From: Diphasiastrum complanatum
Taxonomy: Eukaryota; Streptophyta; Lycopodiopsida; Lycopodiales; Lycopodiaceae
NCBI GenBank assembly: GCA_029204225.1
Contig: CM055113.1
Coordinates: forward strand, 11,430,234-11,494,233
Direction of reading: 5' to 3'
DNA length: 64,000 bases
This document shows, in pieces, positions 9,118 through 62,500 of this stretch; position 1 is the stretch's first letter, and each line of letters begins with the position of its first letter. Position numbers and translations under genes: made by a program. Below the pieces are notes generated by a model. It did not search any database. It saw only the letters and a program-made list of their open reading frames with translations, and was not told where the DNA came from.

Positions 9118-9345
9118 CAGTTCATTGCTATCGTTGCTTTCTGCTATTAGTGGACATTGCTATCATTGTTTTCTGCTATCAGTTCATGTTGCTATCTTGC
9201 TTTCTGCTATCAGTTCATTGCTATCTTGCTTTCTGCTAGATCGGTTCATTGCTATCGTTTCTTTATGCTATCGTTGTTTTCTGCTAGATCAATTCATTGC
9301 TATCATTGCTGTCCGCTATCAGTTCATTGCTGTCGTTTTGCTCTT
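9118..9345. repeat. Minisatellite, units of TTCATTGCTATC...TTTCTGCTATCAG
   Basis: Degenerate tandem units of about 30 bp, each with a TTCATTGCTATC core followed by a TTTCTGCTATCAG or TTTCTGCTAGATC end. It creates a Leu/Ser/Ile-rich false frame (9080-9409). Confidence 0.8.
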
Positions 9346-9689
9346 TGTTGCCTTTTGTTTGAAACATCTTCTTGCATTCCGCAAAATTGATCTCGATCAT
9401 TTATTGTAAAAGATGAGGACACCTGCAAGGAAGTGCAAAGCCGTCTCTAAGGCCACTGTTGAAAATCTTGAGACATTGAGTGCACCTCCCAGCATACACA
9501 AATGGCCACAGACCAGTTACCATGTCGGATCACCAACGAAAACGGGGGTCATGGATCAATCAGAAACCACACATTCACAGCTTGATGAATCGTTTGAGAG
9601 GATGGCTGTTGCGGCCGACGATCATTCAAGCCACAAGAGAGAGGGTAAATTAAGCATCGTAGGTTTTTGTCTATAATGAATTTTGTTAC

Positions 9690-10230
9690 TTTTAGTACTT
9701 TTGGTATTATGATAGCAATTAGCTGCTTTTGGTTCTTAATTTGGAACTTTAGCTGGTTTTGGCTCTTAACTTGGTACATTAGCTGATTTTGGTACTTAAC
9801 TTGGTACTTTAACTACTTTTGGTACTTTAGCTGCTTTTGATACTTAACTTGGTACTTTAGCTACTTTTGGTACTTAGTTTCGTACTTTTGGTATTGTGGT
9901 AGTAACTAGCTACTTTTGGTTCTTAATTTGGTACTTTAGCTGCTTTTGGTACTTTAGCTGATTTTGGTACTTAACTTGGTACTTTAGCTGCTTTTGGTAC
10001 TTAATTTAGTACTTTAGATACTTTTGTTACTTAAGTGGTACTTTAGTTGCTTTTAATACTTAATTTGGTACTTCTGATATTACTATAGTAATTAGCTACT
10101 TTTGGTTCTTAATTTGGTATTTTAGCTATTTTTGGTACTTTAGCTGATTTTGGTACATAACTTGGTATTTTAGCTGTTTTTGGTATTTAATTTGGAAGTT
10201 TAGCTTCTTTTGGTACTTAATTTAGCTATT
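9690..10230 (+). repeat. Left array of a TGGTACTT-based minisatellite
   Basis: Many degenerate units of the form TTTTGGTACTTAACTTGGTACTTTAGCTGC, built on a repeated TTTGGTACTT core. The same core occurs in the opposite orientation at about 11.7-13.9 kb. Confidence 0.75.
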
Positions 10231-36600: not shown

Positions 36601-39600
36601 ATTTGAAGCGGGCCACAAACTGAACAAATGTCCCAGAAAGGAAAATGAACATATGGATCTATAAGTGTGTAAGGCATTGAGAGTGTTAGCCATTAAGTTT
36701 TCATGCATTACTTCGATCGCATCCCACGCCAACCTGCTTATCTCAAGTAGATGCGATTCGTTCACACAAAATTTGAGTGCAGTACTGATTATATTATGTG
36801 ATGCACATAGCCCACTCCTTTTAAATTACGCTACACAAGAAGATTCATCAAAAGAAGTAATGAAAGCAGTAGATGTTACTTTTCACTTAATGAACTGTGA
36901 TATGTATATACAGATGCCATAACAAGAAGAAGCCTCCAGTTATTAAATGGTGCATTTGCCAAAAAGATTTGTGTGCTCTCTTCCGTTGGAAACAGGAACT
37001 GGAGCCTTATGTAAGATATTGTACCTTGACAATAACATATAAACAAGTTCCAGATAGTGACAAGTATAGATGCTCAAAACAATTGTTACTCAAGAAAACC
37101 TCACAGGGTTAATGCCATCTCAGCAGTTTTCTAAATCTTCGTAAATGTTAGATATCATCCATGTGAATCTTGATGCTAAGCATGAAAGCAACCTACCTGT
37201 AAGAATGAGAGTAACTCCCCCTCCAATGTGGAGACTTGCTGCGGCTTCGTCGTCTTCGCCTGCTTCCGCCTGGAGAACGGCTTCTGCTTCTACTTGGAGA
37301 TCGCCTTCTTTTCCTATTTGAATAGTGCTCATCATCTGAATCACTGTCCTTTACGCCTTGTCTTATGAGCCTTCCAAACTCATCCACAATATGTGGCCCA
37401 GACGGTAAACTCTTGCTTGGACCAACCGCTTGATGCCGCTCTTTTATTCTACCCGTATGTATTGTCCTTACACTCGTTTCCTGATCCCTGATAGGTTCAC
37501 CTACTCTGTTGTAAGCATCTGCTTCCACATCATCAAAGGTTTCAACCTGTTGACTCTCGAGATTAGACCACTTTTCATCACCACATTCTCTTCTGTCATC
37601 AAAATGCTTCTGTTTTATACTATATTGCACTTCATGCAATTTCCTCTGCTCTAGCGATTCAGAAGACCTTGCAGCTGTTTCGATATCATGCTCATTGCCT
37701 CCTACGGGCCTGCCTTCTTTAGCCACTGCAGGGGAGAGCTCTTTATGGATTGGCCTTACGAGATCGGGCACTGTGCCAACAACTGTCATACTTCGCTGAT
37801 CGAATCCTGTCCTGCGTCGAGAATCTGTATAGGAAGCAAAACAAAGATAAATATCTTGCATCATTGACCAAAAGAGAAGTACATACTTGTCAATAGACAA
37901 CTTTCAGTTTGCTAAAAAAAACAACTCCCATGTACGATAATGGCGGCTCACAACAGCTGGATAGAGCTCACATCTTTTGAACCTTGCAATTTTAGCCCCT
38001 CATAAAACTATTAAATCCCCAACCAACTCACAATCATTTGTAATGCGGTAATGCTGCGTCAAGTCCAATTCAGCCATTAACCAAATTCTTCAGTAACATA
38101 ATAAGCTGTTCCTGGAAAAAATAGCTTCCTATGTGCTTGAAAACAGCAAGAGACTCAAGAGTTAGTAGTATTGGTTTCCCGAGCTTGCTTGACTATCATA
38201 CCTTTCAGAATGTAAAGGATGTCCTAACTTTTATAGTTAGCTTGGTTATTTTTGTTCTTAATTTCAAATTTAGGCTGAGCTGTACCTGATCTTAATATTC
38301 AAGGACATGCTCACATCGAACATGCTTCTCCCAATTTTCTGGGGAAGGCAGCCCCTTCGTACATCCTCCAATGAAACATGAATGAACCCAGCAAAGATAT
38401 ACCATCAGCTCAGTTTCTAAAATGAACTAAATAGATTTTGGATTCTGGAAGAGGATATATGAATCAAAGGTAGTGCCAAACTTCTGAGTTAATAAAAATT
38501 TATGCTGAAGCTTGAAAATGTTACTAGTGAATTTTTCATCCATGAGATTAGTGCTACATGGAATGCAACCAGAAAGAGATCTCGCCTGCTCATAACGGAA
38601 GCTTCCTCTGTAGTATCCTCCATCTGGTTTCATGTACTTTGAAGTCAAGAAGCCAACACGAGACTTGGAGCAATATATGAATTGCACATGTCTTTATTTC
38701 AGTGTCCAATGGAACACACAATGTAATCAATAGCTCTCTATTGTTACTGTTTTTTAACCTTCAACAGGCCTTTGGCCTAAGCCTCCACCCACGCATGGCC
38801 AGGGAAACCAACAAAGTGGGCAAGCACAATCCAAACATGCTACAACACCCCACCACGTGAGCGCCAGATAATTTTCATCAATGAAAGCATTCATTAATTA
38901 GATCCCCAGAAAAAACTAGTTCACAGATTGATAAGATTTAACCTCTTTCTTAAGCAGCATTCTTGTTGACCTTTTCACACCACCTTCTTCTAACCTCTTT
39001 TCTTTCGAATCAATGAGAGAAAGACGCCTTTGTTGTGCACAGCTTATACACCAAAAAGCTTCTACAAGTTTCTTTAGAAAAGATTTGCTTGTCTAGTAGA
39101 GGATATGCTATCAATCCTTCTGGTACCCTATACATCCTTTTGCTCTCTTGACACTCTCCTGGTCAACATCTCAATGTGAATGTCATCAATCAAAATGGTG
39201 GCCAGTGATGCAAACTATGTGCACACACACCTCTATCCTACTATATGTCTCCTTGACTAGCACATGACTACAAAGACACTTGGATAGACTCCACTTATTC
39301 CAAACCAATTGGTGTTTGGCAGTTAATATCAAGAAGACTCGAAGTATGATCTTCAACACCTCCAGGGCCTATATGCAGTGGCAATTGTTTACTTTAGGTG
39401 GTCAGCCATTCGGGGGGGGGGGGGGGGGGGTGTCCTCTGACACATATTGGGGATACTCTTCACTGGTCCTATCTTTAGTATAGAACATGAGGCTTCAGCC
39501 AAGATGAGGAAGGGCCATGCAACGCTATTTATCCTTGACAACTACTGTTTCCGAAAGCATATTCAGGATGCCCTGAGCAAGTGTAAGCTATTTGATGTCC

Positions 39601-40242
39601 TTGTATCTCCCATGGCTATGTATGCAACAGAGGCTTGGTTCATAGGGATTTTAGTGGATGAGTGGGCTAGTGTTTCTGGTCTACAAATCAAAATGCTCTC
39701 ACGGATGATTCACATCAGATTATTCTTGCAAAGTTTGTTGTCCCACCACTTCAAATTGACACTATCTTTAGAGTGACTATATATATACAAAGACTGATGG
39801 GATTCCAGGCTGACAGATCAACATACTCATGCCTGGCCTTTACCATCAGAGGATGAGGCAGATATACCTTCCAGGGACCGACATAGACATCGAGATCGAC
39901 GGCACATAAAGCTTTTGAGTCAAAGAAGTTATGGCAATTAGGAGTACTCGCTAGTCCACAACCATTCACACTAGGAGACAACAACATCTCCCACCAGTAC
40001 CTGTAGTGCCCACTCTATCTATCACAGCTTTCTTCAACAGCGTTGTAGATTGAGCACACCTACACATGTCTACATATTACAACAAGACACTATTAGGCAG
40101 CATCATTGTTTCAATATATTAACACATTCTTCTACTTAGATGCTTGTCAATTAGTCAGTTTGTTCGTGGAGACAATTTATGCTCCCATATGGATTTTATC
40201 ATACTTGAAATGTATTTATCTTGTATTTTTTGGTACCCCAAA

Positions 40243-40319
<77 letters not shown>

Positions 40320-42238
40320 CTGGAGCAGACTTTTCATCGGGATGATGGTGGACAAATTGCCAATTATGTGATGTACTAATATCAAATTTACTACATGTTA
40401 ATGATGCTAATGTTAATGTTGTCATCTCGAAGAATCACTTTATTCTTGCTATCTCCATTTGCACATGATGAGATGATGAGAACTATTCTTGATGAAGCCA
40501 TATGGGATGACACAAAATTATTTCCTCTTCGTTTTGGTGAAAACAACTTTGCTACGAAAACTTGATCCACAGCTTTACCGATTTGATTTTAAGCACCTCT
40601 CCTTACTTCTTTTTGCAAAACTTCGTCAATGTCATCTCTCTCACCATCAAGGTAGTCACCAAGTTTTGATAGATTTGCAGAAGACCGCTGAGTGTAATAC
40701 TCAATCATATCAACATCCTCAACACTTTCATCACCCTCCAATGGTTGATCAGGAGCCTTGTTAAATATTTTGTGATTGGCTCTCCATCATTCAACTTCAT
40801 TCTATGAATTTTTTGAGTGGCTTCAAACATGCCTTGAAGTGTTCTCCAACCTTGAAACAGTTTTTTTGCAACACTTTATATGCAGTACCAAATCATCATG
40901 AACCAACATTTATGTTCCTACTCTCTCCTCCAGTCCTCATCAAAATCACTACCATTGGAGGAACTTCACAAAGATTTGTTAAACCTCCAATTACGTCACT
41001 TCACATAGAAGCCACAACAGGGGGCTTTCCACAAAGTTTCTTACTCCTCTGATCAAGGTTGATTTTGCAAACCTTTTGCTAGCCTTTGTAACGCATGCTT
41101 TCATGCTTCTTGCAGGCTTTAACGGTACCTCTTCTTTGAAGTACTTTCATTTAGTCATTGTTCTCAAGCATCTCCATTGCATTCTGCAATGGGTTACTCT
41201 CTCTTCAACATTCAATGCAGATCTGCTCTCTTATCAAGAACGCTGATCCTCTCCTCTATTTCAGATGTCAGATTCCTCTACATGCTGCCATCATCATGGC
41301 TCCAATACCGAGTGAAAGTACCAATTCAATAATCAATCTCACACATTAGCTCTTTAGCATTCACCACAATGCAAACAAGCATTCATAGGAAGAGAGAAAA
41401 GATTCTATGATGAGAGAGTGAGTCTCCAAGAACTACCTCCAATAACTTTCCTAATGAGGGAGAGTATGCCCATTAGTAACTACCGTTGACATGACTAGGC
41501 CTCCTTGTCTAGTGAGACTTGGCCTAGCACATAGAGTGGACCCCGCTGCATGCCATACTAAGGAAAATTGCACACCACCATGTGCACTTGGCAAGCTATG
41601 TACACAAACTAAAATAGGCCGGCTAGACAATGTGAGGCTTGTGTGTGAGCCGAGCAGCACATCAGGAGGGCTACAAGAATGGTTGGGCAACACATAAAGG
41701 AATGGCAGTTCAAAGCTTTCACCAAGGTCCAAAGACTAGGACCATTAACACCCTATGCATAGTAGCAACCAAACTTGTTTGGTTGGAGAACCAAACTTTT
41801 TTCAAACACGTTTGAGACCTTTTTTGAGCTTTTGTTTTTTTTGGAAGACAAAATCCGTTTACGTCTATTTGTGGCTTATTTGTCACCTATTTTCAAGGAT
41901 ATCATAAGAAAGTGGATGTTCCTATGCGCCTAAATGTAGCCTTTTCAATTGTATAACAAATGATAAGCAAATTTGCCTACAAAATATTAAAAAAATTTAA
42001 CTTTTGAAAACCCTAGAATTGAGAAAAGTTTTCAAACGTTTGGTGGATTTTTCCAAACATTTGAAACACGTTTCAAACGTTTCAAGTTTGGACGTTTGAG
42101 ACCTTTGGTCACTACCATGAACCTATGTAATAACATTAGCAAATCATGTAAATTCCAAGTTCAGCGCCCAAGGCCATCAAGTGACTAGGTTCATTGAACT
42201 TGCACATTCTTTAACTTGCGTGTTTGGTAGGACAAGGA

Positions 42239-42287
<49 letters not shown>

Positions 42288-45200
42288 CGCGCCCTCCGCC
42301 CTGCTGGTGCGCTGCCCGCCTGCTGGTGCGCTGCCCGCCCTGCTAGCGCTGCTGCCCTCTCTCTCTCTTGCGCGCCCACCCGCCCTGCTGGCGCTGCTGT
42401 CCGCCCTGCTGGCGCTGCAGTGCTGACCTTCGCACCTGCCCTACGCTGCCCTGCGCTGGTCTGCGCTACTGCGCTGCTACGCCTGGCCGTTTGTCTACAC
42501 TGTCCTCCATCTGCTTACCGCCTCCTATGGCACCTAAGAAAAAGGGGGGTGTTCTTACACCCCCCTCCCTGTTGGACACCCCCCCATCACCGGTAGTGAT
42601 GGAGGAGCCGTCTTCGGTGATAGAAACTAGTGACATTCCTGTCAACATGGCTGCCATTGACTACACTCCTTCCAAACCTACCGAAAGTCTTTTTGCTTAT
42701 GATCTTAGTTTTATCCGACAAGAAATTCTTGGACTTAAGAAGCAACTACACCTCTTTGAAGCTGAAAATAGCAAGTTAGCTAAGGATCTTTTTGGTGTCA
42801 CGGAACGTGTGGAGCAGCTTGAGCAAGAAAATATATATCTTAAGCAACGAATTGCAGAAAAAAGTGTCTTGGAGGAGACTTCCAACAAGATCAATAGCTT
42901 GGAGAAACAAGTCGAGGAGACGAAAACGTGGGCAGCACTCTTCAAACCGGATGATATGGGCAGCAAACTCTCATCACTCGCAAAACAGGTTGAAGAAACG
43001 ACATCGATCCTTAAGCAAGGTAATCACTCTCAGATTTCATCTTTTCCGAAGGAAAACGATTTGGAGACAGTTTTGGGTGAACAAGCCAGAAGGGCCAAAA
43101 AAGCCTTTAACATTAGAGTAAGAGGCATTGCCAATGGTGGAAAACCGTTGGAAGAAGCTACGGATTTGCTCATTTCCAAGTTATCTCATGTGGCTGATGG
43201 TTTTGATACTGCTTGGCGTAGTAAATTTGATGACAATGTTTTGTTTATCAAGTTCCGCTCGCTTTCACAACGGAATGCTGCCCTTCGGCTTAGGGCAAAG
43301 CTTAAAGGTACTTTCATTTATATGGATGATGACTTAACAAATACTCAATGGTTGGCAAGAAAAAAGATTATCCTTGAAGCGAAAGAGAAAGGGCAAAGGG
43401 TTGTTTTTATTGACGGGAAACCGAGATTTTTCGACCTTCCACAATAGGAACTAGGGGCCCCCGGATATAGAAGCTACCCGAGATCCCCTACCAATTTGAG
43501 ACTTGGCTTCTGGAATTGTAATGGTTTTTTATCTTCGTCATCAGCCGGAGACTTTGCTGATTTTATTAGAAAATGCGACATTTTGTTGTTGGCTGAAACT
43601 CATGAGTCCTTATATCATCCTCTTCCAAATATACAGGAGTACTCTTGGCATTCTGCTTTTCGTCCATTTGTTAGGGGAAAAACTTGTCGAGGATCTGGAG
43701 GAGTAGCTTGTTTATACAGAGACACCACAGTTCAGATGGTTAAACAAGATCCATACGCTCGCTATATTTGGTTACACATTATTGGCTCACTATTGGGATT
43801 ACCTCAGGACATCTATATAGTTGTATGCTATTTTGCTCCACAGACCTCAGTGTTTGCTGAGTTTGGCGGGGACCCTTTTCAGGCTCTCTCAGATGATATT
43901 GCTATCTTTTCTCAGCAGGGTTCCATTTTACTAGCAGGTGATTTCAACGCCCGCACAAGTTCTAGACAAACCGAATTTCATGCAGCTACGGATCTTCTCA
44001 GGCTTTACCCTTTGGATATGGGGCTAGACCGGGTATCACAGGATGCAGACACTCCAGCTACATCTTTCGGGGAGCAGTTGATCACTCTAGCAGAGATACA
44101 CGATCTTGCCATTTTGAATGGCCTCACACAGTGGCCTTCCTCATCAGCATATACATGCTATCCTCATGGTGGAGGACATAGTGTGGTCGACTACTTTATT
44201 GGATCACCTGCTTTGATTTCTCACATTTCTGATTTCTCCATTACACCCCCTACCATTTCCGATCACTCACTCTTACACATCTCACTTGGTCACATAACCT
44301 CTTCTTTGCAAGTTTCTTGCTCTCTTCCCACTCATAAACGTATTCCTTTCACCCAATCTGGATTCACTAATTACACCACAATCTTATCCCAACTACTCGC
44401 TAACTTCCCGTTCATGGCACCAATTGACCAGCAAGCCACTTTTCTCTCTACATCCCTCTTAGCTGCTGCTTCCTCATCCTTCCCCACCAAAATGACATCA
44501 TCTCACAGAAGTGTTCACAACAGATGGTATGATGCAGAATGCCACTCTCTTCACAATCATGTGACATATGCCAGGTCACACTCCCCTGCCACACTCAAAC
44601 AATGCCAGAAAGAATATCATAGAACCACCAGAACAAAGAAGATCAAGTACCTACAATCACTCTGCCAAAAAATGATCAACTCTTTAGATTCACCCTCCTC
44701 CTCTTTTTTCTGGAAACATTTCACCAGACACTCTTCAACATTGGCCCCCATAGCCATCGAATCCTGGATCGAGTATGCCACGGAGTTATATACCACGGAC
44801 TCTCCTCCTACCTCACTCTCACCAAGACCTGACCACTGCTCACTTTTCACCCCTGACATGGTTGAAAACGCCATTAAACATGCCAAACTAAATAAAGCCA
44901 CTGACTATGACTCCTTAAGTGTAGACTTCCTAAAGCCCGTAGCACATCTCATCTCCCCTTACATTGCTCATGTTTTTAACACAGCTGTTACTTCTGGTTT
45001 TTCATTTTGAGATGCATTATTGAGGAGGCTCGACATCGGAAACAGAGAATTTACTGTTGCTTTGTGGATTTTCGCAAAGCTTTTGACTCTGTTCCACGAC
45101 ATCTTCTTTTCCAGAGACTGTCTTCACTTGGCTTTTCAGAGGATACTATTGCTGCGATCATTACTTTATATGAGCGAGTCTTGGCACGTTTCAGAGATGG

Positions 45201-47016
45201 TAGTGGCTGGTCCTCACAGATACATTCTACCATTGGTGTGAAGCAGGGTTTCCCCTTATCACCCACTCTTTTTGCACTATATATAGATGACCTCGAGCGG
45301 ATTATTCGCGAGGAAGGTGGAGAGGGCTGTCCCCTAGCAGACATTATTATCCCCATTCTCTTGTACGCTGATGATGTGGTTCTCCTCTCATCCTCTGCAG
45401 CTGGTTTACAGAGTCACCTTTCTGCTTTACATCACTTTTGCCAGCGTTGGGGATTGACGGTTAACCTTAAGAAGACTAAGATTATGGTGTTTAACACCAA
45501 CAGACAGCATATGAGAGATGTGATTTTCTACTATGACCGGCTACCGATTGAGATCGTGACCTCCTACACCTATTTGGGAGTTCTTTTCTCTGGTCCGCTA
45601 CTCACTTTTCGACCAGCAGCCACCGCCAGGCTCCGCAAGGGGCATACCGCTCTTGTGCATATGGAGAGATTTTGCTCTACTTATTATGTGCAGGATCCTG
45701 CTACCAGATGCCTACTATTTTCTGCTACTGTCTCCCCAGTTGTGCTATATTCGGCTGAGACTTGGTGCCCTGATTTATCACGCGATACATGGAGAGATCT
45801 TACTCGTATCCAGATTCTCATGCTCAGTAGGATAATCCGGGCTAAGCCCTCAGTACCACATGATATCATACTAGCCGAGTTTGCTTCTCCTCCATTAGTT
45901 GTTGGTGCTATGTTTCAGATCATCACCTTTCTTCACAGGGTATCAGATCTAGATACCTCCAGATACATTGTTGCTGCTCTCACTTCATCTCGTACCATTG
46001 CGGATCAGGGAGCCAAGCACTCTTGGTATCGCAGTGTCTCAGCCCTTCTTCAGACTTGGGGTTTATCCGCACTTGATCTTCCGAATGGAACCCATGCTTA
46101 TATCAGACAACAGATCTACCGGAGCTACATACGCACTATATGGTCACATCCTGATCCAGATAGGGTCAAGCTACATTATTATGGCACACATCTTTTACGG
46201 CTGGACGTTTCGGGCTTGCCTATTCTTCCAGTTTATCTTACACAGACGCTATCTTTTGGTCTGAGATATCGTATAGGACAGCTTCGAGTCTCTTCTCATC
46301 AGCTTGCTATCGAGACAGGTAGATACACAGACACTCCCAGATTGCAGCGGATATGTCAGCTCTGTTCTCTTCAGGAGGTGGAAGATGAGTTTCATTTCAT
46401 CTTTCGCTGCCCAGTATACTATGAGATTAGAGGACGATACCATTGTTTATACCGAGATATTCCCCTCACGTTGAGCTCCTTCCTCGAGTATCCAGACGCT
46501 AGATGTGTGGGTCTTCTTTTGAGAGAGATGTATATTTTACGAGCTTCACTTCTACCTAAGCTCTCAGATATGGATTCCAGTCAGGCTCACATTACTCAGT
46601 TCTTCCAGAAGCGAGACAGAGTGGATATTTTGGTTGCGGATTTTGACGTCCCCGTCCGAAGATCGAAGACACAGAGAGTTTCGGCTCGATCCAGTGCTAC
46701 TAGATCTTCATACGCCTCCCACCAGCCTACATCACGACCCACTACTACCATCACTCATTACTTTCGGCTTGCTCGTAGCTAGTTTCCTCCGCGGAGCAGG
46801 TGGTTAAGCTCTTGCTTTGTACCCTCACCAGCTGGTGGTCAAGCTTGGATACTTTTTCTCTTAGAGACAGAGAGATCGATACTTTAGTTTTAGTTTTACT
46901 GTCTTTTCATTGGTAAATAAGTCCTTATGCGGACAATGCTTCTCACATTTTGTACTCTCTTTTGTCTTATGTGCCCCTGGGCACCAAAAGACGTTAATAA
47001 TAATAATTCTAATTCT

Positions 47017-47107
<91 letters not shown>

Positions 47108-50100
47108 GAAGCTATCATCGAGGAAGCCAGACATAGAGTTTACTGTTGTTTTGTTGACTTCAAGAAAGCCTTTGATTTCGTTCCACATTATCTTCTCATC
47201 CAAATTCTACGTGATCTTGGTTTCTCCACTGATACAGTCTTAACGGTGATGGCACTTTACGAGGGCGTTTTTTGTTGCTTTCGGAGTGAGCCACGCATGC
47301 ATCTCAGAGTATATTGCCATCAGGGTGAAGCAGGGCTACTCCCTCTCCACATTATTTGGATTGTACATTGATGAGCTTGAGAGAGTCATTGAGCAGTGTG
47401 GTGACACAGGCTGCAATCTTTGAGAAATTCTGATTGCCATCCTCCTCTATCTGATGATGTGGCTCCAGTCTCCACGACTAAAGAGGGCCTCCAAAGACAC
47501 TTGGACAATCTTCATGCTCTCTACACCAGATGTTTGAGGGTTAGTACTGCGAAGACCAAGATCATGGTCTTCAATACATCCAGGGCCTTCAAACAAGAGC
47601 TTATCTTTGACAGACAGACACTGGAGGTTGTATCATCCTACACTTACTTAGGGGTTCTTTTCACTGGCCTATATTCGGTATGAGACAAGCAGCTACGGCC
47701 AGCAGACTCGGGAAGGGACACGCCTCCCTTGTCCAACTAGAGAGATTTTGTTTCCGGAAGTTAATTCGGGATGCCCCGAGTAAGTGTCAATTTTTTGATA
47801 CCATTACTACCCCCACCGCATTATCTGCAGTGTACATGTCTCATTGAATTGGGCCAATATTTCACGCATCCTTATGATAAGGGCTAAGCCCTCCATCCCA
47901 CATTAGATCATTTGGGTTGAGTTTGCAGTTCCACCTATACAGCTGGACGCTATCTTCCGACTTATCACTTATATCCAGAAAGTCAGGTCCTTTTCCATGG
48001 ACGAGCAAAGATACACAAGCAACACTCATCTCTTCCACCCACCTTCATAGTCAGGGCTTTCGACTATCATGGTTTTCTCATACCTCCCACTTATTTGACA
48101 TGCTTGGCATTTCTATCATGGACCTTCCATCAAGCACTCATGGATACATTAGATGCTTTCTATACCGAGCATACCTTAGTCAAGCATGACGGGGCCAATT
48201 AGATGACAAACCCGACTACTATCGGACTCAATTCTTGGAGCTGGATACATTTAGGTTCGTTGTTTTACCGAGCTAGTTGGACTCAGGATTATCACATGGT
48301 CCGAGATTCAGATTGGGCAAGCTCTGCGTCTCATCACATCACCTCAAGATTGAGACTGGAGCTTCCAGGGTATCCCACGAGAGAAGAGGACTTGCTAGCT
48401 TTGTTCCCTATCGGAGGTGGAGTCTGAGGATCATTTTTTATTCAGACGCCTAGTCTATTATGAGATCCGAGAAAGATATCACTACCTATTTCAAGATGGA
48501 TCTGTCACACTGAGATCTATTATAGCCTATGAGGATCCACGTTTTGTTGCACTCATGGTAAGGGAAATGCTTATATCACGACGGGATTTATGTCAACCTG
48601 CTCAGCCGAGTCACTCTGACGATCAACTCCAGAGTTCGTCCTTCTCTTGTAGAAGATTAGACTGATCCGAACTCATACGACAATGCCAATGACAATGACA
48701 ATCCACAACATAGAGATCAGAGGCGATGTACTACTTAGATTCATGTGGTTCACCAAGCCACAGGTCATACCATGAGGGGCCACACATATTATAGCCGACT
48801 TCATCGACGACCTCCGATAGCAATAGTCCCCATTACATCTTTCTTCAACAGTAACAGGTCTTGAGGACAGCAAGTTATATTGTCACCATTACCAATTATG
48901 TTTATATTTGCAGTGATATACTCTTGTATCAAATGCACTCAGATTTTCATTTTAAGAGATACATTTAGTTTATCTGTCTTTACTATTTTGGAGACATTCA
49001 TACACTCCCTTATGTGCCACATAGTTGACATGTACTCATTGTCGTATAAGTCACCGTGTTCTTCGTAATAAAAAATGCACTTATGAATCTAATGAAGGCA
49101 GACGTCTAATTAATCTCCTCTACAGCTCGTCCACTGGTGCCTTTTGGCGTGACTTCTCTCCCCGGTCTCCACCTCCCTCCCTCACAAATCTTTGCACTTG
49201 GACTAACTATGCCACCACTCTATACACTATCCCTACTAACACTCACATTATCATTTCCCCACCACCCTCTGATTTCTCTCTTTTTACGTCTGATATGGTC
49301 CTTGAGCCATCAAGAGAATGAGAACACATTGTACACAGGATGTCAATCTGAACTTCTTATCCATGCTCCTGACACACTGAGACCCATACTTGCCGATCTT
49401 CTTAACCACGTTGTCATCACGAGTTTCCCTTCCTCCTAGTGCACCAATATCATCCATCCTATCCACAACAGCGGTGATCCCATTAAACCTAATAACTACC
49501 GCACCATCATGATTGGACATGTCATTGCAAAACTCTATTGAACCAACCTCCAGTCTGCAGTGAGTACAGAGGCAGAGTCTAGGAGACCTCATGCTACGGG
49601 TCAGACGGGTTTCAGAGCTCATTGCTCTACTACTGATCATGTCCTTACACTCTGTTCCATCATTGAGCAAGCCAGGCAGAGACGGGAGACAGTTTATTGT
49701 TGCTTTGTTGATTTCAGGAAAGCCTTTGACTCGCTCCCACGATCCTTGCTTATTCAGAGGTCACGGGACTTGGGCTTCTCCACAGATACAGAGATGAGAG
49801 AGTTTGGGATTGTTTCAAATGAGAGTCTGGCATCTCATATCCAGTGTTGAACACTATTGGGGTGAAACAGGGTTGTTCCTTATCACCTCCTTTATTTGGA
49901 TTATACATTCATTGATGAGCTTGAGGAGGTTATCAATTGGGGATGATGGTCTGGGTTGTAGCTTTGGTGATATCTTGATTGCAATACTTTTATATGATGA
50001 TGATGTAGCTCTATTACCACCAACCAGGGAAGGACTACAAAGACACTTGGACAGTCTACACACATTTTGTGATAGATGGAGATTACAGGTGAACATCTCG

Positions 50101-51078
50101 AAGACCAAAAATATGGTCTTCAATACTTCCAAACCCTTTATGCTGAGACAGGAGTTTAACTTTGAGGATCAGCCTCTAGAGGTAGTTTCATCTTATACCT
50201 ACTTGGGGGTGCTTTCCAATGGTCCTATTTCAGTATGAGACATGCAGCCTTGGCCCGCCTAGGGAAGGGCCATGCGTCCTTGGTCCAGCTAGAGAGATTT
50301 TGCTTCAGGAGATATATTCATGATGCTCCTAGTAAGTGTCGCCTTTTTGACATTATGGTCCCTCCTACAGTACTCTATTCAGCTAAGACTTGGTGTACAT
50401 CTTCTTGGTATTCACAGGTTACTCGTCTCGAGTTCACTCACCATCTCCAACCTTCCAACAGGCACCTATGACATTTATCGGGCTTACATACCTTGTAGGG
50501 ACAGTTGGGTGTTAAACCCGACTTTTATCGGACTCACTTCTTAGAGCTTGATGTATCGGGCTTCCTTTCCAGCCGCAGTACTTAGACTTTGGGTTATCAG
50601 ATTGTTTGAGATTTACACTGGGACAATTCAAAGTATCTTCACATCACCTTAAGATTGAGACTGGACGTTTTCGGGGCACCCCACGAGATGACAGGATATG
50701 CCAGTTATGTTCACTAAGAGAGGTGGAGACTGAGGAGCATTTTATCTTCAAATGTCCTGCTTATTATGAGATACGTGGTCGATATCACTGCTTATTCAAA
50801 GACTCACCTACTACTTTACATTCTCTCATCGCCTATGAGGATCCTCGGTGTGTGGCCCTTATGTTATGCGAGATGTCCCTGATTCGAAGTCTTTGCTCAA
50901 CCAAATATTCATGATACATATATTTACTTACTATGAGAGTAAAGTAGAGTAGAGTAGAGATCTATCTACTAGTCTTCCTTATCTGGTAGTTGTTTGTTTT
51001 ACTGGAGACATGTATATGCTCCTTTTAGTGTTTATCATACTTGAGATGTACTTATTGGTCTTATATGCCTTTTGGCAT

Positions 51079-51161
<83 letters not shown>

Positions 51162-51707
51162 ATGCTTCGGTCACACTGTGGTCCCTTATAGCATATGATG
51201 ATCCACGATGTGTTGCACGTATGATCAAAGAGATGTTCTTACGACGACAGGACCTATGCTAGCCACCTACTCATCCTAATACACAGCTCCAAATCACATC
51301 GTTTTTCTCCTGCAGGAGGACCTTGGATCGAATGACAACGGCGACGACAATGACTTTTACCGACATAGAGACCAAAGATGACGAACTACACATACTCATA
51401 TTGCCCGCAAAGTCACTACTCAGAGATGACCTCCTCGGCGACATCAGCAGCATTTATTGAGACCACCTCTAGGCATTATCCCCATCACATCTTTCTTTGA
51501 CAACAACAGTATTTGAGGACAGCGAGATATACCATTATCATATTGGCAGCAAGACTCTCTTGCATTAGACATACTCTATCTTTTAGTGTAGTACACATGC
51601 TTTTCTTCTCTGTTATGGAGATGTTTCATACGCTCCCGCTGTACCACAGACTTGATATCTACTTTTTTCGTCTTATATGTCTATTGGCATGGAAAAGACA
51701 TGAATAA

Positions 51708-51741
<34 letters not shown>

Positions 51742-54637
51742 CTCTTCTAGAAGGGGCGTTAATGCATGCAGCAAGCCTCTTCCTAGATCCCATGCTACAG
51801 ATCCAGCATAAATCTATGTTGAGGGAATTGATGATTGATTGAGGAAAAATTCTCCTAACACTAGCTTGCATGGCTGAGAATTGCTCGGTTGATCCGAGGC
51901 TTCATGTAATGCTATTTCTTGTGATCAAAGTCCCACTTTGGGGAGGGCGCCCATTCCGCCCTCAATGTTGTGTTTTTTTTTTTGGTTGCATGTTGCTAAA
52001 ACTTTATGCATGCCACTAAATCTTAATGCATGTGCAATTTCCTTTCTGATAGCATATCAATTTCCATTTGCATGTTGTTGTAATCTGGCCATAGCTGCGC
52101 TGGTACGATGCTGAACTCCAAGATCTCACCTCTAAATACCTCAAGCTCATCATTGGGCGAGTCTTGGCCTGTTGGATCGGGATACACCTTACTAATGTAT
52201 TGCAAAGTTGAAAGTTCAAACCTGGTGGGGGCTGGTCTCAAAAAGTCAAGGATAGAATGGGCCCTGAACATACTGAGGACCCTTGGCCTCTTAGTGACAA
52301 ATCCCACCAAGAACGGTGTTGTGTCAACGACCTCCTTGACCCATGGTATCCGTGCTATGTCCTCAAAAAGGAGGTCGAGATAGTGTGCAGCACATACCGT
52401 CCAAAAAATGTGGGGATAGGCCTTATTAACAAGCCTCCCCATCAAATGACAACTTGCAACATTGTCCGTCACAACCTGCACAATTTACAAATTATAGCAC
52501 AACTTACAACTACTAACTTGAAACTTGAGTCTTGAATCAAGCAAGCTGCAACAATATCGAACAAATTACAAATTTGAAAGTTGCAATAGATACTTGTGAT
52601 TCGTGATTCAAAAGTTTTAAGTTGCAGCCTGTAGGTTATAGTCTGTAAGTCATAACAAGATTTTACAACTTTCAAGAACCAAGAATCAAGTTTGAATTGT
52701 AATTGTATATTTGCACAACATTATCTGGTCCCACCTCCACAATGGCCTCCTGGATATGGCGAAACATATACTCGCCGATGACCGATGTGCCTGCCTCGAA
52801 GGTGTCGATGGCTCTCAAAAACATCGTGCCCATATAGGAAGACACCAATATATTCAAAATGTGTCCCTTCCTTACATCAGTCTAGCCATCACCCATACGT
52901 GGTTTCCAAGCAGCCAATGGCCATTTAAGTTCAACATTGACAATCAATGATTGTGGCAAATTGCAATTAAAATCGTCAAACCTCAAAAATTAAGTGACAA
53001 AGCTGAGAGCTTGAAAGGGCTTACTTTTCCCAAGACTTCTTGATCGGCTGTAGCTCCCAATCAATGGAGGCTCACTCATCAAGAAGTCCTCTCCTCTGCA
53101 AATGATCCATGCTGGGACCTTCCCACTCCAAAACGATCCTAGAAACGGCTCTCGTCATCTCCCTCCATGCAGGGGTTGCAGCAAGGTGAAATGGGAGGTC
53201 GCACGTGTAAAAGCACCTCCTAACAACAATCTCAGTCAATTCCTCGTTTGATTGCGTCCAAGAGGCCATATAATAGTCCTCAGCCAAGGGCTCTACCCCT
53301 CGATGGTGCACGATCTATAGATGGTGCTCTGGAGGAACCAATGCCACAAGTATTGCTAGGTCATGGCCTTGTGTCACCCTGAGTCCCAACATCTCCAAGA
53401 GACCGAGTCTGAGAGGTACTAGGCTCATGAGCTACAGATGTACGCCGCGATGTGGAAGGCTCTAGCCACTCTGCTAAATGAAAAGCTACAACTCAGAAAA
53501 ATTATAGCACATGTTGCAAGCAGTAGTTTCCAATTTACATAGAAGACTCACAAATTTGGTAATTGGATTGTTGAATGTCGAATGTTGAATGTTCAATGAA
53601 ATTATGAATCATGATTAACATTCATAAGGGACAATTGAAAGAGATTAAAATTTAGAATGATGAATCAAATAGTTTAAACTCAATTTTCAAACCTTGAACT
53701 TTTGAGTCATGACTTCAAATAAGTTACAACTTACAACAAATTTTAAATTCCACAATACATATTCCAAATTCAAAATTTCAAAATAATAAATTCAAATAGA
53801 TTATAGGACTTGAGAGTCAGGAGAGCCGCCTCTGGGCATCGAAGGACGGGCCTCCTCTAAGTCCTCAGGAGGTTGGGCAGGTGCATGTAGGAGCTCTCAT
53901 AATGACTCTGGTGCCTGTGTGCAACCCATAATGTCATGTCACCGTAAGCATAGCAGGTGTGCCTTTATCCGAGTTGAGCCACCTGTGTATCTAACACCGC
54001 AATACCTATCATGGTCCATCAAACAAATTGGACAAAATAGGTCAAGACTCGAGATTCAAGATTAGACTTTGGAGAGTCGAGACTCAAGAGTCAAGATTCG
54101 AGATTCAAGCCTCAAAGAGGACCTTCTCTCATGAGTCACTGACAACTGTACTATCATCTATGTAGTCTGTACTATGTGTTATCATCTATGTAGTCTGTTG
54201 ACACTTGACAGTTGAATGTTCAGTGTTCAAACTTCGAACTTTAATGTTCACAACTACAACTTACATGTGATACTAGATAGAAACTTGAAGTTGAAAGCTG
54301 AAACTAACTATTACTATTTATGGTTTAAACTTTACCTACAGGTCCACCACTTTGTGCCCGATGTGCCATAGTTTGCTTCGATTGTCACAGGATCCCACGA
54401 GAGATCCCTAACCTTGCATCGTACTACGTAGGCTAGTCCTAATTCCTATCTAATACTACTACCTAAACCCTAAATTCTAATAACAAATTCCTATCGCTAA
54501 TTACCAAATTCCTAATACCTATTTAATACAATCTTATCTTTCAAAAGTGACTCCCCAATCGGCGATTCGAACACCAAACCGCGATTCAAATCGGGGAACT
54601 GTTTGAATCGGGACAGCATTCGCAACATTTTCACGCA

Positions 54638-54704
<67 letters not shown>

Positions 54705-57700
54705 ATTTGATTGATGTCTTGAGTACCCTAAGGTACATAGGACTAAGAAAAGGTCCAACAGCCTGGAATAGTACATCATGATGCCCATCAACATGGAAGA
54801 AATGGTGGATGGTATGTTGTGAAGGTGTCACTAGATGTGCCATGGACCTCTGTCGACGGGGAGGCAGTCGGTGTCGTCTCTATTGTCGTGGCGCTCTGAG
54901 TCGTGGCCTAATAGCTAGCTGTCTCTTTGGCCATCGACACTATCTCTGCTGGCGATGTATGAAGGAATCTAGAAACTCTGCCTCTCCATGTGAATCATAG
55001 CCTATGGGTACCTCGGATCTCTGTCTCCAGCGGGATATGCACTCATTGATGCTCAACTGTGTCAACGAATGTGTATCAATATCTAGTCTCCTCCTCCTCA
55101 AGTCTGACATCTCCCGAATCATCAATACAACACATCTAGGGTCCTCATAGGATATCAGGGTAGAAAGTGTGACTGGGTGCTCCTTGAACAAGCAGTAGTA
55201 CCTCCCCCAAATCTCATAGTAGGCTGGACATCTGAAGTGGAAATGTGACCACAATCTCATGCATAACACACGTGCTACAAAGCCGGCCCTCTCGTGGGGT
55301 GCCACTATATCTGCCGGTCTCAATGGCTAGCTGATGTGAGGAAACCCGAAACTGACCCATCGATATTTGCAGCCTGAGTGATATACTCCTCAGCAAGTAA
55401 CCAGGTACTATGGGGCAGCCAGTTGAATCAAAAGATAGAAAGTGTGTACGGTAAAACTCACTCTTGGTCCCCAGTGGACCCTTCCAGGTGCTATCAAGAT
55501 ACAATCTGTAGAGGAGGCCTGTGATGTACTAACAAGTGCCCACAGGTAGGTCAGTAATTTGAATACCCAATGTGGAGAGGAGACGACAAGCCTGGGAATA
55601 CCATGAAAAGAGGTGACCCTCTGAGTGTAGGCGCCGGGATGAAAATAGAGCCGCAACAACATAGTGTGTACCCCCGTCCTGAAGATCATCCAACCTCTGT
55701 ATAAATGTGACAATATGGAATAAGGCCTCAATCTGAAGGGGGGGGACCGCAAACTCCTCCAATATAATCTGATGTGGTACTGAGGGCTTAGCCAGTATCA
55801 TCCAAGAGAGCAAACGAATCTAGAGCCGGGAGATATATGTCCAATCAGTAGTTGTCAGACCAGTACTCCATGTCTCAGAAGCATACATAGCTGAGGGCAC
55901 AACCATAGTGTCAAAGAGCCGGCATTTAATCGTCGCATCTCTGATGTGTGAGGTGAAGCATAGTCTCTCCAAATCTACAAGTGAGGCATAGCCCTTCCAT
56001 ACCCGGACTATACCTGCATGTCTCATGCTGAACGTCGGCCCCGAGAATAGCACCCCCAGGAATGTATAGGAATCAACAACCTCAAGTGAATGACCATCCC
56101 ATAGAAGCTCCTGCCGCATCATGAAAGACCTAGAGGTGTTGAACACCATAACCTTAGCCTTGGCCACATTCACTGACAAACCCCACCGTGTGCAGAAGGA
56201 AAGAAGAGCATCTAAGTGTAGCTGCAAACCCTCTCTCGTCCGACAAAACCACATCATCGACATACAAGAGGATAGCAATAATGAGGTCGCTCAATGTACA
56301 ACCCTCCCCCCCTCATCACGCTGTATAACATGCTCCAACTCGTCAATGTAAAGACCAAAAAGTGTAGGAGAGTGGCCAGCCCTACTTGACCACAATAGTA
56401 CTAACCACCTCCGGAGAGATAACTCCTGATAGTCGTCGGTCGGACCCTGCCAATAATTCGCCTGTACAATGCTATTACTGCCTGTATAGTATCCTCCTGA
56501 AAGCCCCGATCATGAAGTCTCTGTATCAATAGATGCCTGGGCACAGAAGCAAAGGCCTTGCAGAAATCCACAAAGCAACAGTATACACGCTCTCTCTTGG
56601 CCTTAGCCTCCTCAATGATGGACCTTAAAGTAAAGATATGATCTGATGTAGTATATCCCGATCTGAAACCCGCCTGGCCAATGGCATGGAGTGATCTAGC
56701 ATCCATCTCTGTACTAATCTCTGACTGTAAGATTGAACCATAGACTTTGGCAAAGAGGTGGCTGATCATAATGGTGCGGTAGTTGTCAACTTTCATGGGG
56801 TCACCGCCTTTATGGATAGGGTAAATGAGATTTGTGGACCATGGAGAGGGAAAATCAGAGGTGACAGCTCAGTTGAATAGAATAGAGAGGAAGGGTGAGA
56901 GGATGTTGGGAGCATACTTTAGAAGTTCAGCCTCTAGCTCATCAATGTCTTTGGCTTTATGGGAATGGAGTCATGTGATGGCCTGCTCTATAAGATCGTT
57001 AGTGAATATGGCAGAAGTATTTGTGGGAAGAGATGTGGGAAGAGGAGGGGTATCTAAGATGGTGTACAATGATGTGGCATATGCGACCCAAATGCTGAGG
57101 TCTGTGATCCATGGTGGAGGTGACAGTGGAAGGAACTTCCAGAAAGAACCTGAGGAAGAACTGAAGAGGACCATCACTTTCTTACCCTGGCCAATCTCGT
57201 ATGCAATTTTCTTTTTCATGGTAGTTCTACGGTAGGCACAAGATATGGTTTTGATCATATGAGGAAGATGGTAGCGAGCATATATGAGGTTCTGATGGAG
57301 GTGGATGCATTCCTAATCATACCAAGGGTTATGGGGTCTATGATGTCACTGGTGTTTGGGCCGTGGGGATGGAAAGGCAATGGAAGCTATAGTGTGGATG
57401 GTCTGGACAAGAAAGAGGGACTGCTCCTCTAAAGTATGCTCATGTGGGAAATAGGTAAGGAGATCAGAGAGGGCTTCTCTGTACAGTGGTGTGTTATGTG
57501 ACGTGTAGCGATAGGTGGGTTTCATTGTAGGGGTCGAAGAGAGAATATGTGTGATGGGGAGATGACCAACAGAGAGTGAGAGATATGAATGATCAGAAAG
57601 AGTGGTGCGGTGTACAGAGAAGGATGAAATGGAGAGAAGGAGAGGCGGTGAACCCATGAAATAGTCGACGACGCTATGTGGGAAGCAGGTGGTCACCAGA

Positions 57701-59470
57701 GCCTGGCAGCTGAAGGAGGCCATTATAAATGGCCAATCCATGAGCCTCGCCCAACTGAAGCATCTGCTCCCCGTATGATGTAACTGGACCCGCTACATCC
57801 GCCGATCGTCGTATAAGACCAAGATCATCCCAATCAAGTGCATGTATCCGTTGTGGATCATCTGCTGTGAAACTTCGTTTGCCTAGACCCAGTCCTAGCA
57901 TTGAGTCCCCCGCTAGAAGAATATATCCTCGATCCTCATATCTGATAATGTCCGATGAAATATCCATGAAAGCTGACTCCTCCTCTGAGGTGAAAGCTGA
58001 TGTCTCTGGTGGGCCATGCATATGTCACGATCTAACTCCATTAACCTGTGGTCCAACCTGATCCAAATATAGTGAGCTTGCTCGTTAGTGTATAGTAGCT
58101 CGACCCACGGCTAGAGAGAGTCTCGAAATAAGCAAGCAACACCACCTGAACCGCGACCAGTCAATGCCCTCGTCGTCCCCCAACAGGTAGAAAGCCAGCG
58201 AAATCCCTCAATGCAAGGAAGTCCTCTCTCGGGACTCGCATGTGTCTTTGTAAATATAAGGATATGCCCTGTGACACAAAAATCTCTAAAATCTCCTGTT
58301 GTAGCTGAAGAATGGATACCATTGCAGTTCCATAAACTCAACCGCAATGCTTTTGTGAGGGCCCCCGAACCGCTCCTAAGTCCAGGAGGCCCAAATCCCT
58401 ATGTCTCAGATTTCTGAAGGTCAATGTATTGGGCCTTAACATCCCGATAAACCACCCTTTTGCCCAATGCTTTGGCTTCGCTGAGAACCTTTCTCCTTTC
58501 CGTAACTTGCATCGGTGTGAGATCATCATCCGTAAAGACAAGGGTACCTCTCAGCCTACCCCGTAGCCTAAGGGCAGCTTGCCGCTACTCTAATCCCGTG
58601 AACCGTATGATGAGTGTAGATGGATCTCTTTCAGTTCTCCACGCTCTTTCCATTCCGTTGCAATGGTGGGAAAGTGTATCCGTGAGGAAATTGGTTGCTT
58701 CGGTAATTGGAGCCTTAGTATCTTCAATTCCTCGCACCCGAACATTCATAGACTTATACTTCCACATTTCTTCTTTGGATATGGTGGCTGAGATGACGCT
58801 ATTGAAGGTAGGTGTACCTTCTTTGCCGTCTTCTTTGAATAGAGAGGCCCATGTTTTGGTCTCCGCCTTATGGTGCTCAATCCGTTCCTCCAATTCTTGG
58901 ATCTTTGTGTTGGTGGTGCTGGCTGGTTCTTCTTTTTTGCCTCTTGCAAAGAGATGATCCGGGCCATCATAGTCAGCTTCTCGATTGCCATAGCTTGTAT
59001 TGTGGTGTTCATTTGACCCATTTCAACATCCTTAGATAGCTAGATTCCAGTGTAATCTGCTCCATGCAAGAAAGAATGTATTGTTCAAATGCCTTCGTAG
59101 GGGAGTAAGCTTCCTTAGGGAATGAGAGGGGATAATGAGAGGGGGCAGGAGAACCAAGGAGGGAGGAGAGAGCCGAAGAAAAAAGGGGGGGGGGGGGGGG
59201 GGGGCTGACTGCGTACTGCTGCGTGGCTCCAGTGGTGTCCAGCGAGGAGGTGGAAGGGAGAGAAGGAGCCAGCGAGGGGGTGGGAAGAGCCAGCGAGGTG
59301 GTGGGAGAGGTAGGAGAGGCAGCCAGGGGGGGAGGGGGGGTGGGAGAGGACGGGGTGTCCAGCGATGGAGGGAGTGAGTGAAGGAGGGAAGCGAGGGCTC
59401 CCCTTATTTTTCTTGGCCATAAGGGGATGGATAGAGAGAGATCACCAGCAATGGAGGACGGCCATCACCA

Positions 59471-59531
<61 letters not shown>

Positions 59532-62500
59532 AGGGAGAGAGGACACCTGGCCACCATACTTCTTGTTGTGTTGTCTACACAAAACTTGAAACTAGTATGT
59601 GGAAAAATTTTATGATTGTGCGGAAAAACTAAGAGAACCCTCATTCTTGTAAACATATGTCTGCAGAGAGATTTAGCAAGCAACGGGAGCTGGAAATTTG
59701 TGATCTCATGAAATATTGATAGTTTATTAGTCAGTCATATAGCAACAACATTCATACAGCATTAATGTAGTTTATACAACCACTTAACAAGTTGCACAAA
59801 ATTACGTCTTCATACAACAGCAAAATTAAGAAAATCAGCAATTGAAGCAACGGGAGCTGGAAATTTCTGATCTCATGAACTATTGAAAGTTTATTAGTCA
59901 GTCATATAGCAACAACAATTCATACAGCACTAATATAGTTTGTACAAGCACTTAACAAGTCGCAAAAAATTACATCTTCTAACAACAGCAAAATCAAGAA
60001 AATCAGCAATTGAAATCAATATATAGGTCCATATCAATAACAAAAGGATCGTATGGACCAATTGCTAATAGCAATCATACTACATTAACCTGCAGGGCAT
60101 AGAGCTCAATTAGCCATTTAGCTCAATTAGACTGCAAATCAACGGCTTCTTTATTTAGTTTTGTGAGAAAATTTTGAGTAAGAGCAATTCTAGTAGTATT
60201 GCTTCAAAGAAGTCACAGCACTTGGTTGCCAATGATTCTTAGAGCGTAACAAGCAAGGCCAATTACATACCTCATCACTTGCTCAACCAGAGAGGTGTGT
60301 ACCTAACACTTACTTTACCTCGGATTGTTTACCTTCAAAAGGTGATTTCATTTACTCTGTTACGGTGAGACAAATCAAATTAACCACAAGATTATCATCA
60401 AAATTCAATTTTTTGGTATAGAGTTCGCAAAAATGACTTCTTATGGAAAATGATATAAACCACCAAGAATATAAAATCATTATTATAAAACTTGATTGCA
60501 AGGGATTTCCAAAGGTCTATGTGATGAAGCGAACTACCTACAACCACACACAAAGGAAAGAAATTTATAAAGTAAAACAACCGCATTAGAAGGGACATCT
60601 AGGGCATAGATAATTAATAAGAGCTAAACGACGTAGAACTTTGAAAAACTATCCTTAGTCTAAATGACACTCAATATTGCACTAGCACATAATTATGCGA
60701 CAACGTAATTTCCATTGACAATAATAGATCACAAACTCAAACTTCAAAAATAAAAAGACCAAGACCGAATATAGGAAAAACTAGATACAAAAGTACAAAT
60801 GCAATTTGAAACAACAAATGACAAATATATCATGTGACGTTAAGTAAGCTAGCTGCAAGCACACCCTCAAAATAGATGTAAACACGTAGTTGGCCACTAC
60901 TTTATAAAACTTTGAATGTTTGCTAAAGTAGTAGATCGAGATGCGGTTGAACTGGTGAGATTGGGATATGTCCAAATTCACAATTTCGATTTAGAACCCC
61001 TGATGTCATTAGGTGAAGCTTTAGAATAAAGTATACATGCAACCAAAAAAGTTAGAAAAAAGCCATATCAAACCAACATAAAAAAACAACATTTTTTTAC
61101 CATTAGGTGAACTTAAAACAATGCACACATGCAATAAGAAAGGTCATATAACCAACCTCAAACCAAAAAGAAACAAAAGTATAGTCAAATCAAATTCGCT
61201 TAGAGTCTCATGTAAGTACCTCAACAAGAAACCAAATTTTCACACACTCTCGTAAATATAGTTGCCCGTTCCACAACGAAACGCGTTCCAAAACGTCAAG
61301 GAAATTAGTATGTATTTTTTCTTTTTTGATTTGATATTTTTTTCAGTTTTTCAGGCCAAAAGTGCATATTCCATCTGGCATCTATACAAATGTGCTGTTG
61401 AACATATATAAGCTTTGCTCTACGAAACAGCAATGGCATTTGGGGAACTGAACTAGGAGATCTAAACAAACTGCAGTCAGCATCTTTGAATCCCCTGAAA
61501 ATTGGGTCTCGTCGCTTACATAGCAAAAGAGTTTTTTAACATTGATCAAATTATCAAAAATGATCACTGTTTGAATGTATCCAAATTGCATATGCCTGGA
61601 GTATAAAGTCAACAACAATCGACAACTGGGTTAAAGATTGGTGCAAACATGTGCTTCCAACAAACCACGATAAAGCAATAGCTGATCAACATAGTGCTCA
61701 TTGTTTCAGATTCCAAATCGATGTTGTGGATCCATGAGGCCGAAATTACATCCTCCATCCATATAAAGAATGCTCATAAAAGTTGGTTCCTTATTTTTTG
61801 TAGACGTAGTATTTGCTACTTGTTAGGTATTTCTTAGGGAAATCTTTTAAGTATTGTTTGATAACACATTCTGCACCAGTACCTTCCCGGAACGTACTGT
61901 ACAGAACGTACACTACGTTCCGACCTAGTTTGGTCGAAACGGGTTTCTGAGCTTGTAACTTTCACCATAAGATCAAAGGATATACCTCTTCTACGTTGGC
62001 CGTCTATAGTGGGACGATCAAGGTCTCGATTCTTATTCCAATTATCTAAACGTAGCTGCTCCTGCTGCTTGGAATGATCACTATCGTATCTTGACATTGA
62101 GTTACAGATGCTGTCCCGCTCTTTCTTGAACTTCGGTGAAGGAGATAATTGATCGTCGTCTGCAGAAATGATCATCAGACACAGCACTCAAAGGCACATA
62201 TTTGTGTGTGCCTGGTCTATCTTAAATCAGCCGGCATATACTACACAAAATATGAAAAAATGATCATAAAACCGATGGAAGTAAATAACAGCACCATTGA
62301 TATTCATCTCAGATGCATTTGAAGAGAAACGTCCTTCCGACGTAGAACGTGCTTCTGAGTTGATCTTTTGATGCTCTTGAAACAAAGATGTTCTATTTTC
62401 AGCTGAAGCTGACTTGGAAAGCAAGTCATGTTTCTTCCATTCATAAAAGTTGTAACCAATAAATGCTTCAGAACCTGCCTCTCCTCCAAACAAAAACCGA

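Follow-up and report, generated by a model that had tools for sequence, protein, structure and literature searches.

The window analysed here (64,000 nucleotides of the clubmoss Diphasiastrum complanatum, C22:11430234-11494233 in a 1.74 Gb assembly) contains six copies of long interspersed nuclear elements (LINEs) that are bordered by seven long (CT)n microsatellites, with CT on the element's sense strand. From junctions gathered across the genome we conclude, with high confidence, that these LINEs, which have two open reading frames (ORFs), an APE-type endonuclease (EN) and no poly(A) tail, insert selectively in (CT)n/(GA)n microsatellites that already exist, using target-primed reverse transcription. 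A preliminary description of the window, made from its sequence, had proposed integration of this kind with the GA strand nicked first, and that proposal has held up as the best reading of the CT-flanked copies.

A young LINE family with CT at both ends

Judged by sequence comparison, the full-length copy of the window (42286-47019) belongs to a very young and very abundant family: a genome search with the ORF2 C-terminus gave 18,573 candidates, of which 150 were scored, and all 150 were 99-100% identical. Over the last 1900 bp, 21 copies (20 fetched whole plus the window's own) differ pairwise by a mean of 0.53% (range 0.1-1.0%, maximum 0.96%). Junctions were chosen among the 150 scored matches by protein score, with flanks not considered. 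This gave 48 3' ends (20 copies fetched whole, 18 further 3' ends, two junctions inside an array of head-to-tail elements on C15 and eight copies on small contigs) and 41 5' ends (the 20 whole copies, 13 further 5' ends and the eight small-contig copies); not all copies are certain to be independent, because the small contigs may duplicate chromosomal loci.

All 48 3' ends run into sense-strand (CT)n of 4-134 units (median 27.5), and 40 of the 41 5' ends, truncated copies included, are preceded by sense CT in tracts of up to 57 units. CT lies at both ends of all 20 copies fetched whole and on both sides of all eight small-contig copies; it is found at each of the 18 further 3' ends and both array junctions, and before 12 of the 13 further 5' ends, the exception being L131. 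Where (CT)6-7 of the 5' untranslated region (UTR) intervenes between the outer tract and the aligned start (four of the 20 whole copies, plus some later ones), the outer tract was counted. Chance is an improbable source of this pattern, as had been supposed from the window: in a background of 91,455 bp (the window outside 39.0-60.1 kb together with the distal flanks of the 20 fetched copies), a sense CT tract of at least 6 units starts no more than 15 nt downstream of only 0.18% of positions. Beyond the CT the flanks are mostly unrelated (five similar pairs among 40 flanks). The copies therefore carry the target repeat on both flanks in a fixed orientation, a criterion for target-specific LINEs; the poly(A) 3' tail of plant ME2/ME3-type L1 lineages is found at none of the 48 3' ends. 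The preliminary description had named most copies lying in unrelated DNA, CT at 3' ends only, and non-CT insertions as outcomes to look for: most copies read are CT-flanked, full-length 5' ends are also preceded by CT, and non-CT insertions are rare (one of 41 5' junctions).

These counts bear directly on two alternatives that had been raised at the outset. If CT were a 3' tail only, made with the element by RNA copying or slippage at insertion sites that are not CT, one could account for CT at every young-family 3' end (some with just 4-9 units), for extra TTTC/CTT units in the tails of a second lineage (see below), and for the resemblance to lepidopteran RTE elements, which are described as ending in short simple repeats that seed microsatellites (PMC2887409, in its available text). 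A 3' tail cannot place CT at 5' ends, so that this explanation fails on the CT preceding 40 of 41 of them, including those of copies truncated inside ORF1 or ORF2; it is strongly disfavoured, and we regard it as very improbable. The other alternative, that short CT seeds at the ends of the element lengthened into microsatellites once it was inserted, draws on the fact that slippage does lengthen microsatellites and on the internal (CT)6-7 in the 5' UTRs of the family. It founders on the youth of the copies, only 0.1-1.0% apart and yet flanked by tracts as long as 57 (5') and 134 (3') units; moreover, the long tracts always lie between element and mostly unrelated DNA, and in none of the copies read has the internal (CT)6-7 lengthened. 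We find post-insertion growth scarcely credible.

Nature of the occupied tracts

At 17 of the 41 5' ends, the CT tract that the copy occupies is itself the tail of another LINE from this group. This count began from a regular expression for a LINE 3' signature no more than 60 nt from the CT, which matched 19 of the 41 5' flanks; L018 (no hairpin) and L184 (the tail CT is not the occupied tract) were then excluded. In these nested tracts host and inserted LINE always point the same way, as the sense-CT rule demands, and hence the run of same-direction copies in the window. In the array on C15 (L047 and L048, C15:5071300-5076930), near-identical elements follow each other head to tail, spaced by (CT)35 and (CT)37.

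L017 and L182/L183 occupy the same CT tract of two copies of one dispersed repeat. These host copies are 95-96% alike; the insert pieces that were compared are short and 98% alike, and the 5' UTR layouts differ. This suggests, from sequence, that the CT tract was present in each host copy beforehand and that the two insertions took place separately; a shared origin of the inserts is also conceivable.

Second lineage, relatives and a conserved stem-loop

P0014 (O6H91_13G068200), a Diphasiastrum complanatum protein of a second lineage, has a 100% match on contig C13. Among 20 copies of its family (84-100% identical to P0014), 18 3' ends run into CT of at least 4 units. In a tree of 99 rows, built from database hits and with no named plant L1 and no Tx1 reference row, the window's copies A and F group together as sisters (100/96) on long branches inside a group with fern-type sequences (100/98). 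Taken together, the P0014-family 3' ends and the tree placement indicate that CT-linked insertion is common to clearly different lineages. The closest relatives among database hits and in the tree are fern and lycophyte LINEs, and the named ones outside Diphasiastrum are mostly fern. Relatives were also found on genome contigs assigned to a Trichormus metagenome-assembled genome (L050, L051) and to a mussel-symbiont genome (L052, L053), all probably host contamination. L050, which is 43% identical and probably derives from the fern host (Azolla), has a hairpin followed by a pyrimidine-rich 3' end, TTTTCTTTCTTTCTCCC; no CT was seen at the 3' ends of L051-L053. A sequence labelled Enterobacter cloacae complex sp. 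GF14B (P0043) likewise sits among the fern-type LINE sequences of the tree and is a probable contaminant. A search of viral contigs for relatives gave one weak match only.

Immediately before the tail, a two-helix stem-loop is supported in 13 3' ends (12 from Diphasiastrum, and L050). In their alignment 89.4% of cells pair and 11 cells have both-sided changes, with the caveat that the alignment limits were chosen by hand and two of the measures depend on that cut. The covariation exceeds that of all 500 shuffles and of every slid version; further pair types are no more numerous than in the shuffles.

Coding capacity

With reverse transcriptase (RT) and an APE-type EN in one ORF, and no long terminal repeats (LTRs), the element is a non-LTR retrotransposon of APE type. 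ORF2 of an undeleted copy is open over 1183 codons; in L010 it matches PF00078 (E 3.5e-33) and PF03372 (E 1.5e-14), and the Pfam profile search of this ORF2 returned no RNase H and no confident zf-RVT match. The EN has the APE fold, and its catalytic-type E, D/N and DH are invariant across 21 aligned ENs. ORF1 gave no confident family in the Pfam profile search.

ORF1 and ORF2 share a frame and are separated by a single TAG (CAA TAG GAA CTA; window 43445-43447, L010:2606-2608). This junction is present in 16 of the 20 fetched copies as well as in the window copy; the four without a match to the junction pattern are L009, L011, L016 and L025, some of them truncated. Copy F also has TAG at the ORF boundary, and the residues that follow are alike (GFGPPGLRS vs ELGAPGYRS). 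ORF2 has its first Met at residue 97, beyond the first catalytic EN motif. Together these features suggest that ORF2 may be expressed by read-through of the TAG stop.

A proposed route of integration

The scheme that follows builds on these observations: sense CT flanking the elements at either end, a fixed orientation, outer flanks that are mostly unrelated, youth, a conserved 3' stem-loop and, in relatives, intact APE catalytic residues. The ORF2 protein would nick the GA strand within a tract, and the (GA)n 3' end thereby exposed would prime reverse transcription of the element RNA. That RNA would end in the conserved stem-loop, a short TAATTC- or AATAAA-type sequence and, probably, read-through (CU)n, which would pair with the GA primer. 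The far end would join the remaining CT tract, in 5'-truncated copies often via CT-type microhomology (as L011 and L027 suggest). Since each insertion would leave CT at either end of the new copy, the tails of earlier LINEs become targets in their turn, and head-to-tail series of the form LINE-(CT)n-LINE are built, of which the window holds an example.

A variant in which annealing, and not the endonuclease, picks the target deserves separate attention: any nick in a pyrimidine/purine tract would do, a CU-rich RNA 3' end would pair with the GA-rich primer, and CT would be seen because it is the commonest long tract. The TTTC and CTT units ahead of CT in the second lineage, the pyrimidine-rich 3' end of L050 and the microhomology at the truncated 5' joints of L011 and L027 are what one would expect of it; on the other hand, the junction is CT itself at 48 of 48 young-family 3' ends, and no young-family copy was seen in pure (TTC)n or (TTTC)n. 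We think target choice by annealing rather unlikely.

Selective integration into existing CT tracts has its own difficulties, which we gather here. L131 (with L031, C3 near 6614700-6619700) joins non-CT DNA at its 5' end despite (CT)43 at the 3' end; 14 of the 48 3' tracts have fewer than 10 units; and copy B of the window has a 3' end without CT. In the P0014 family most tails carry a few TTTC or CTT units ahead of CT, so that pyrimidine tracts as such, and not CT alone, may be what is preferred; of the two copies outside the 18, L147 ends in no more than a short, impure pyrimidine tail, and L149, broken off at the hairpin, has lost its end. Finally, a joined-flank search of the genome found no uninterrupted L019 site with both flanks: the left flank, in which a block is a piece of another LINE ending in CT, matched C4 (L164) and C3 (L166), the right flank (an LTR end) matched many places, and the two never occurred together. 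L164 was considered as a true empty site and rejected, being only an unoccupied (CT)19 LINE tail.

More tentatively, and with our doubts outweighing our confidence, we raise a broader possibility: that specialisation on CT/GA (pyrimidine) tracts extends to an entire clade of lycophyte and fern LINEs, which would keep up a niche of its own. Each insertion would leave CT on either side, the tails of one family would be the sites that the next prefers, and LINE-(CT)n-LINE series, together with a large share of the long CT microsatellites of the genome, would be products of the cycle; ORF2 would, in addition, be made by read-through of a conserved UAG.

LINE copies and CT tracts in the window

The features of the window are collected in Table 1. 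Tracts were found where the preliminary description had LINE copies adjoining (CT)n, and tblastn detects LINE ORF1/EN/RT homology between them (+ strand, 39.2-51.3 kb; - strand, 58.9-55.1 kb). CT is on the element's sense strand at seven of seven tracts, inverted copy F included, and no poly(A) tail was seen at these copies, both in agreement with that description. The nine junctions that it counted cannot be taken as independent: there are seven tracts only, since two (47020-47104 and 51084-51159) are each shared by neighbouring copies. The boundary between copies B and C (about 49050-49100) is without CT, and the other long CT/GA tracts of the window (near 6.0, 11.3, 14.8, 24.4 and 28.6 kb) had no match to the LINE's proteins. 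Copy A ends in a hairpin-like sequence, GGTACCCC, followed by CT.

The full-length copy is 98-99.6% identical in nucleotides to the 20 fetched copies over most segments (95.9-96.5% in the largest 5' segment against four of them); it lacks 216 bp at element position 2715 that other copies have. L025 and copy B (47105) have their 5' breaks at nearly the same RT site as this deletion, either through a breakpoint hot spot or by coincidence. Two 168-bp tandem copies (91% match) lie just outside copy F, at 59678-60014, and diverged tandem repeats of about 30 and 48 bp cluster at 9118-10223.

Table 1. LINE copies, ORFs and CT tracts of the window
Feature	Position	Strand	Evidence
LINE copy A, 5'-truncated, decayed	39232..40244	+	tblastn RT 39232-39817, 34-44% amino acid identity; sequence
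(CT)15 at 3' end of A, then (TA)n	40245..40274	+	sequence
(CT)22 immediately 5' of full-length element	42242..42285	+	sequence
Near full-length LINE, young family; ~216 bp of RT missing at about 45001	42286..47019	+	comparison with 20 fetched copies
ORF1, ATG to in-frame TAG stop, 306 aa	42527..43447	+	TAG conserved
ORF2: APE-type EN, RT, C-terminal CCHC-like motif; frame broken by deletion	43448..46782	+	PF03372 E 6e-15, PF00078 E 2e-27
(TC)42: 3' tract of full-length element, 5' tract of B	47020..47104	+	sequence
LINE copy B, 5'-truncated; 5' end at CT, 3' end without CT, end approximate	47105..49080	+	tblastn RT 47114-48590
LINE copy C, 5'-truncated, EN C-terminus through RT	49052..51083	+	tblastn EN 49052-49300, RT 49659-50890
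(TC)38: 3' tract of C, 5' tract of D	51084..51159	+	sequence
LINE copy D, short, 5'-truncated, RT C-terminus and 3' UTR	51160..51710	+	tblastn RT 51161-51328
(CT)14 at 3' end of D	51711..51739	+	sequence
(CT)29-30 at 3' end of F, GA on +	54641..54700	-	sequence
LINE copy F, full-length, decayed, another lineage	54701..59476	-	tblastn ORF1/EN/RT 38-65% amino acid identity; tree
(CT)25-26 immediately 5' of F, GA on +	59477..59528	-	sequence

Comparison with known systems and significance

The Tx1 lineage of LINEs includes (TC)n-specific families. Target-specific families with an APE endonuclease are reported in the Tx1 and R1 clades in the available text of PMC4640811, and the clubmoss LINE resembles them in combining that endonuclease with target specificity; the likeness is one of features only, the nearest relatives that we found being fern and lycophyte sequences. 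TRAS1, of the R1 clade, targets the telomeric repeat, as opposed to CT/GA. In animals, the Togen families are (TG)n-specific and DongAg and DongBg insert in microsatellites; as far as these are described in the text available from the two reports (PMC4640811, PMC3636483), they share with the clubmoss LINE insertion in a simple repeat that forms both flanks, and differ in being animal elements near NeSL/R2 with a restriction-like endonuclease (RLE), in contrast to an APE endonuclease, two ORFs, a lycophyte host and CT. Lepidopteran RTE elements also couple a LINE 3' end to a microsatellite (PMC2887409, in its available text); there the simple repeat is the element's own 3' end, whereas in the clubmoss the repeat is not confined to the 3' end. 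Plant L1-clade LINEs are likewise non-LTR elements with EN and RT, and one maize/sorghum lineage has a conserved 3' RNA structure, according to the available part of PMC3747384; the clubmoss LINE differs from the L1-clade elements in its lack of a poly(A) tail, its CT target and, in L010 ORF2, the lack of an RNase H match and of a confident zf-RVT match.

The target-specific LINEs named in the available text of PMC4640811 come mostly from animals; further ones are from amoebozoa, oomycetes and groups of that kind. We found no plant or fern microsatellite-specific LINE in the open-licence literature, and one may still exist in print; a plant LINE that supplies its own landing sites seems to add something new to the microsatellite-specific LINEs, which are known in animals. 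Target-specific LINEs are prized for leaving genes alone and for an insertion that is in principle programmable. As the family is young and abundant, with many fresh junctions, sequence can show, in a plant, in what order cleavage, priming and 5' joining take place. If it is true that the tails of these LINEs feed later insertions, microsatellite abundance in a plant genome would be tied to transposon activity.

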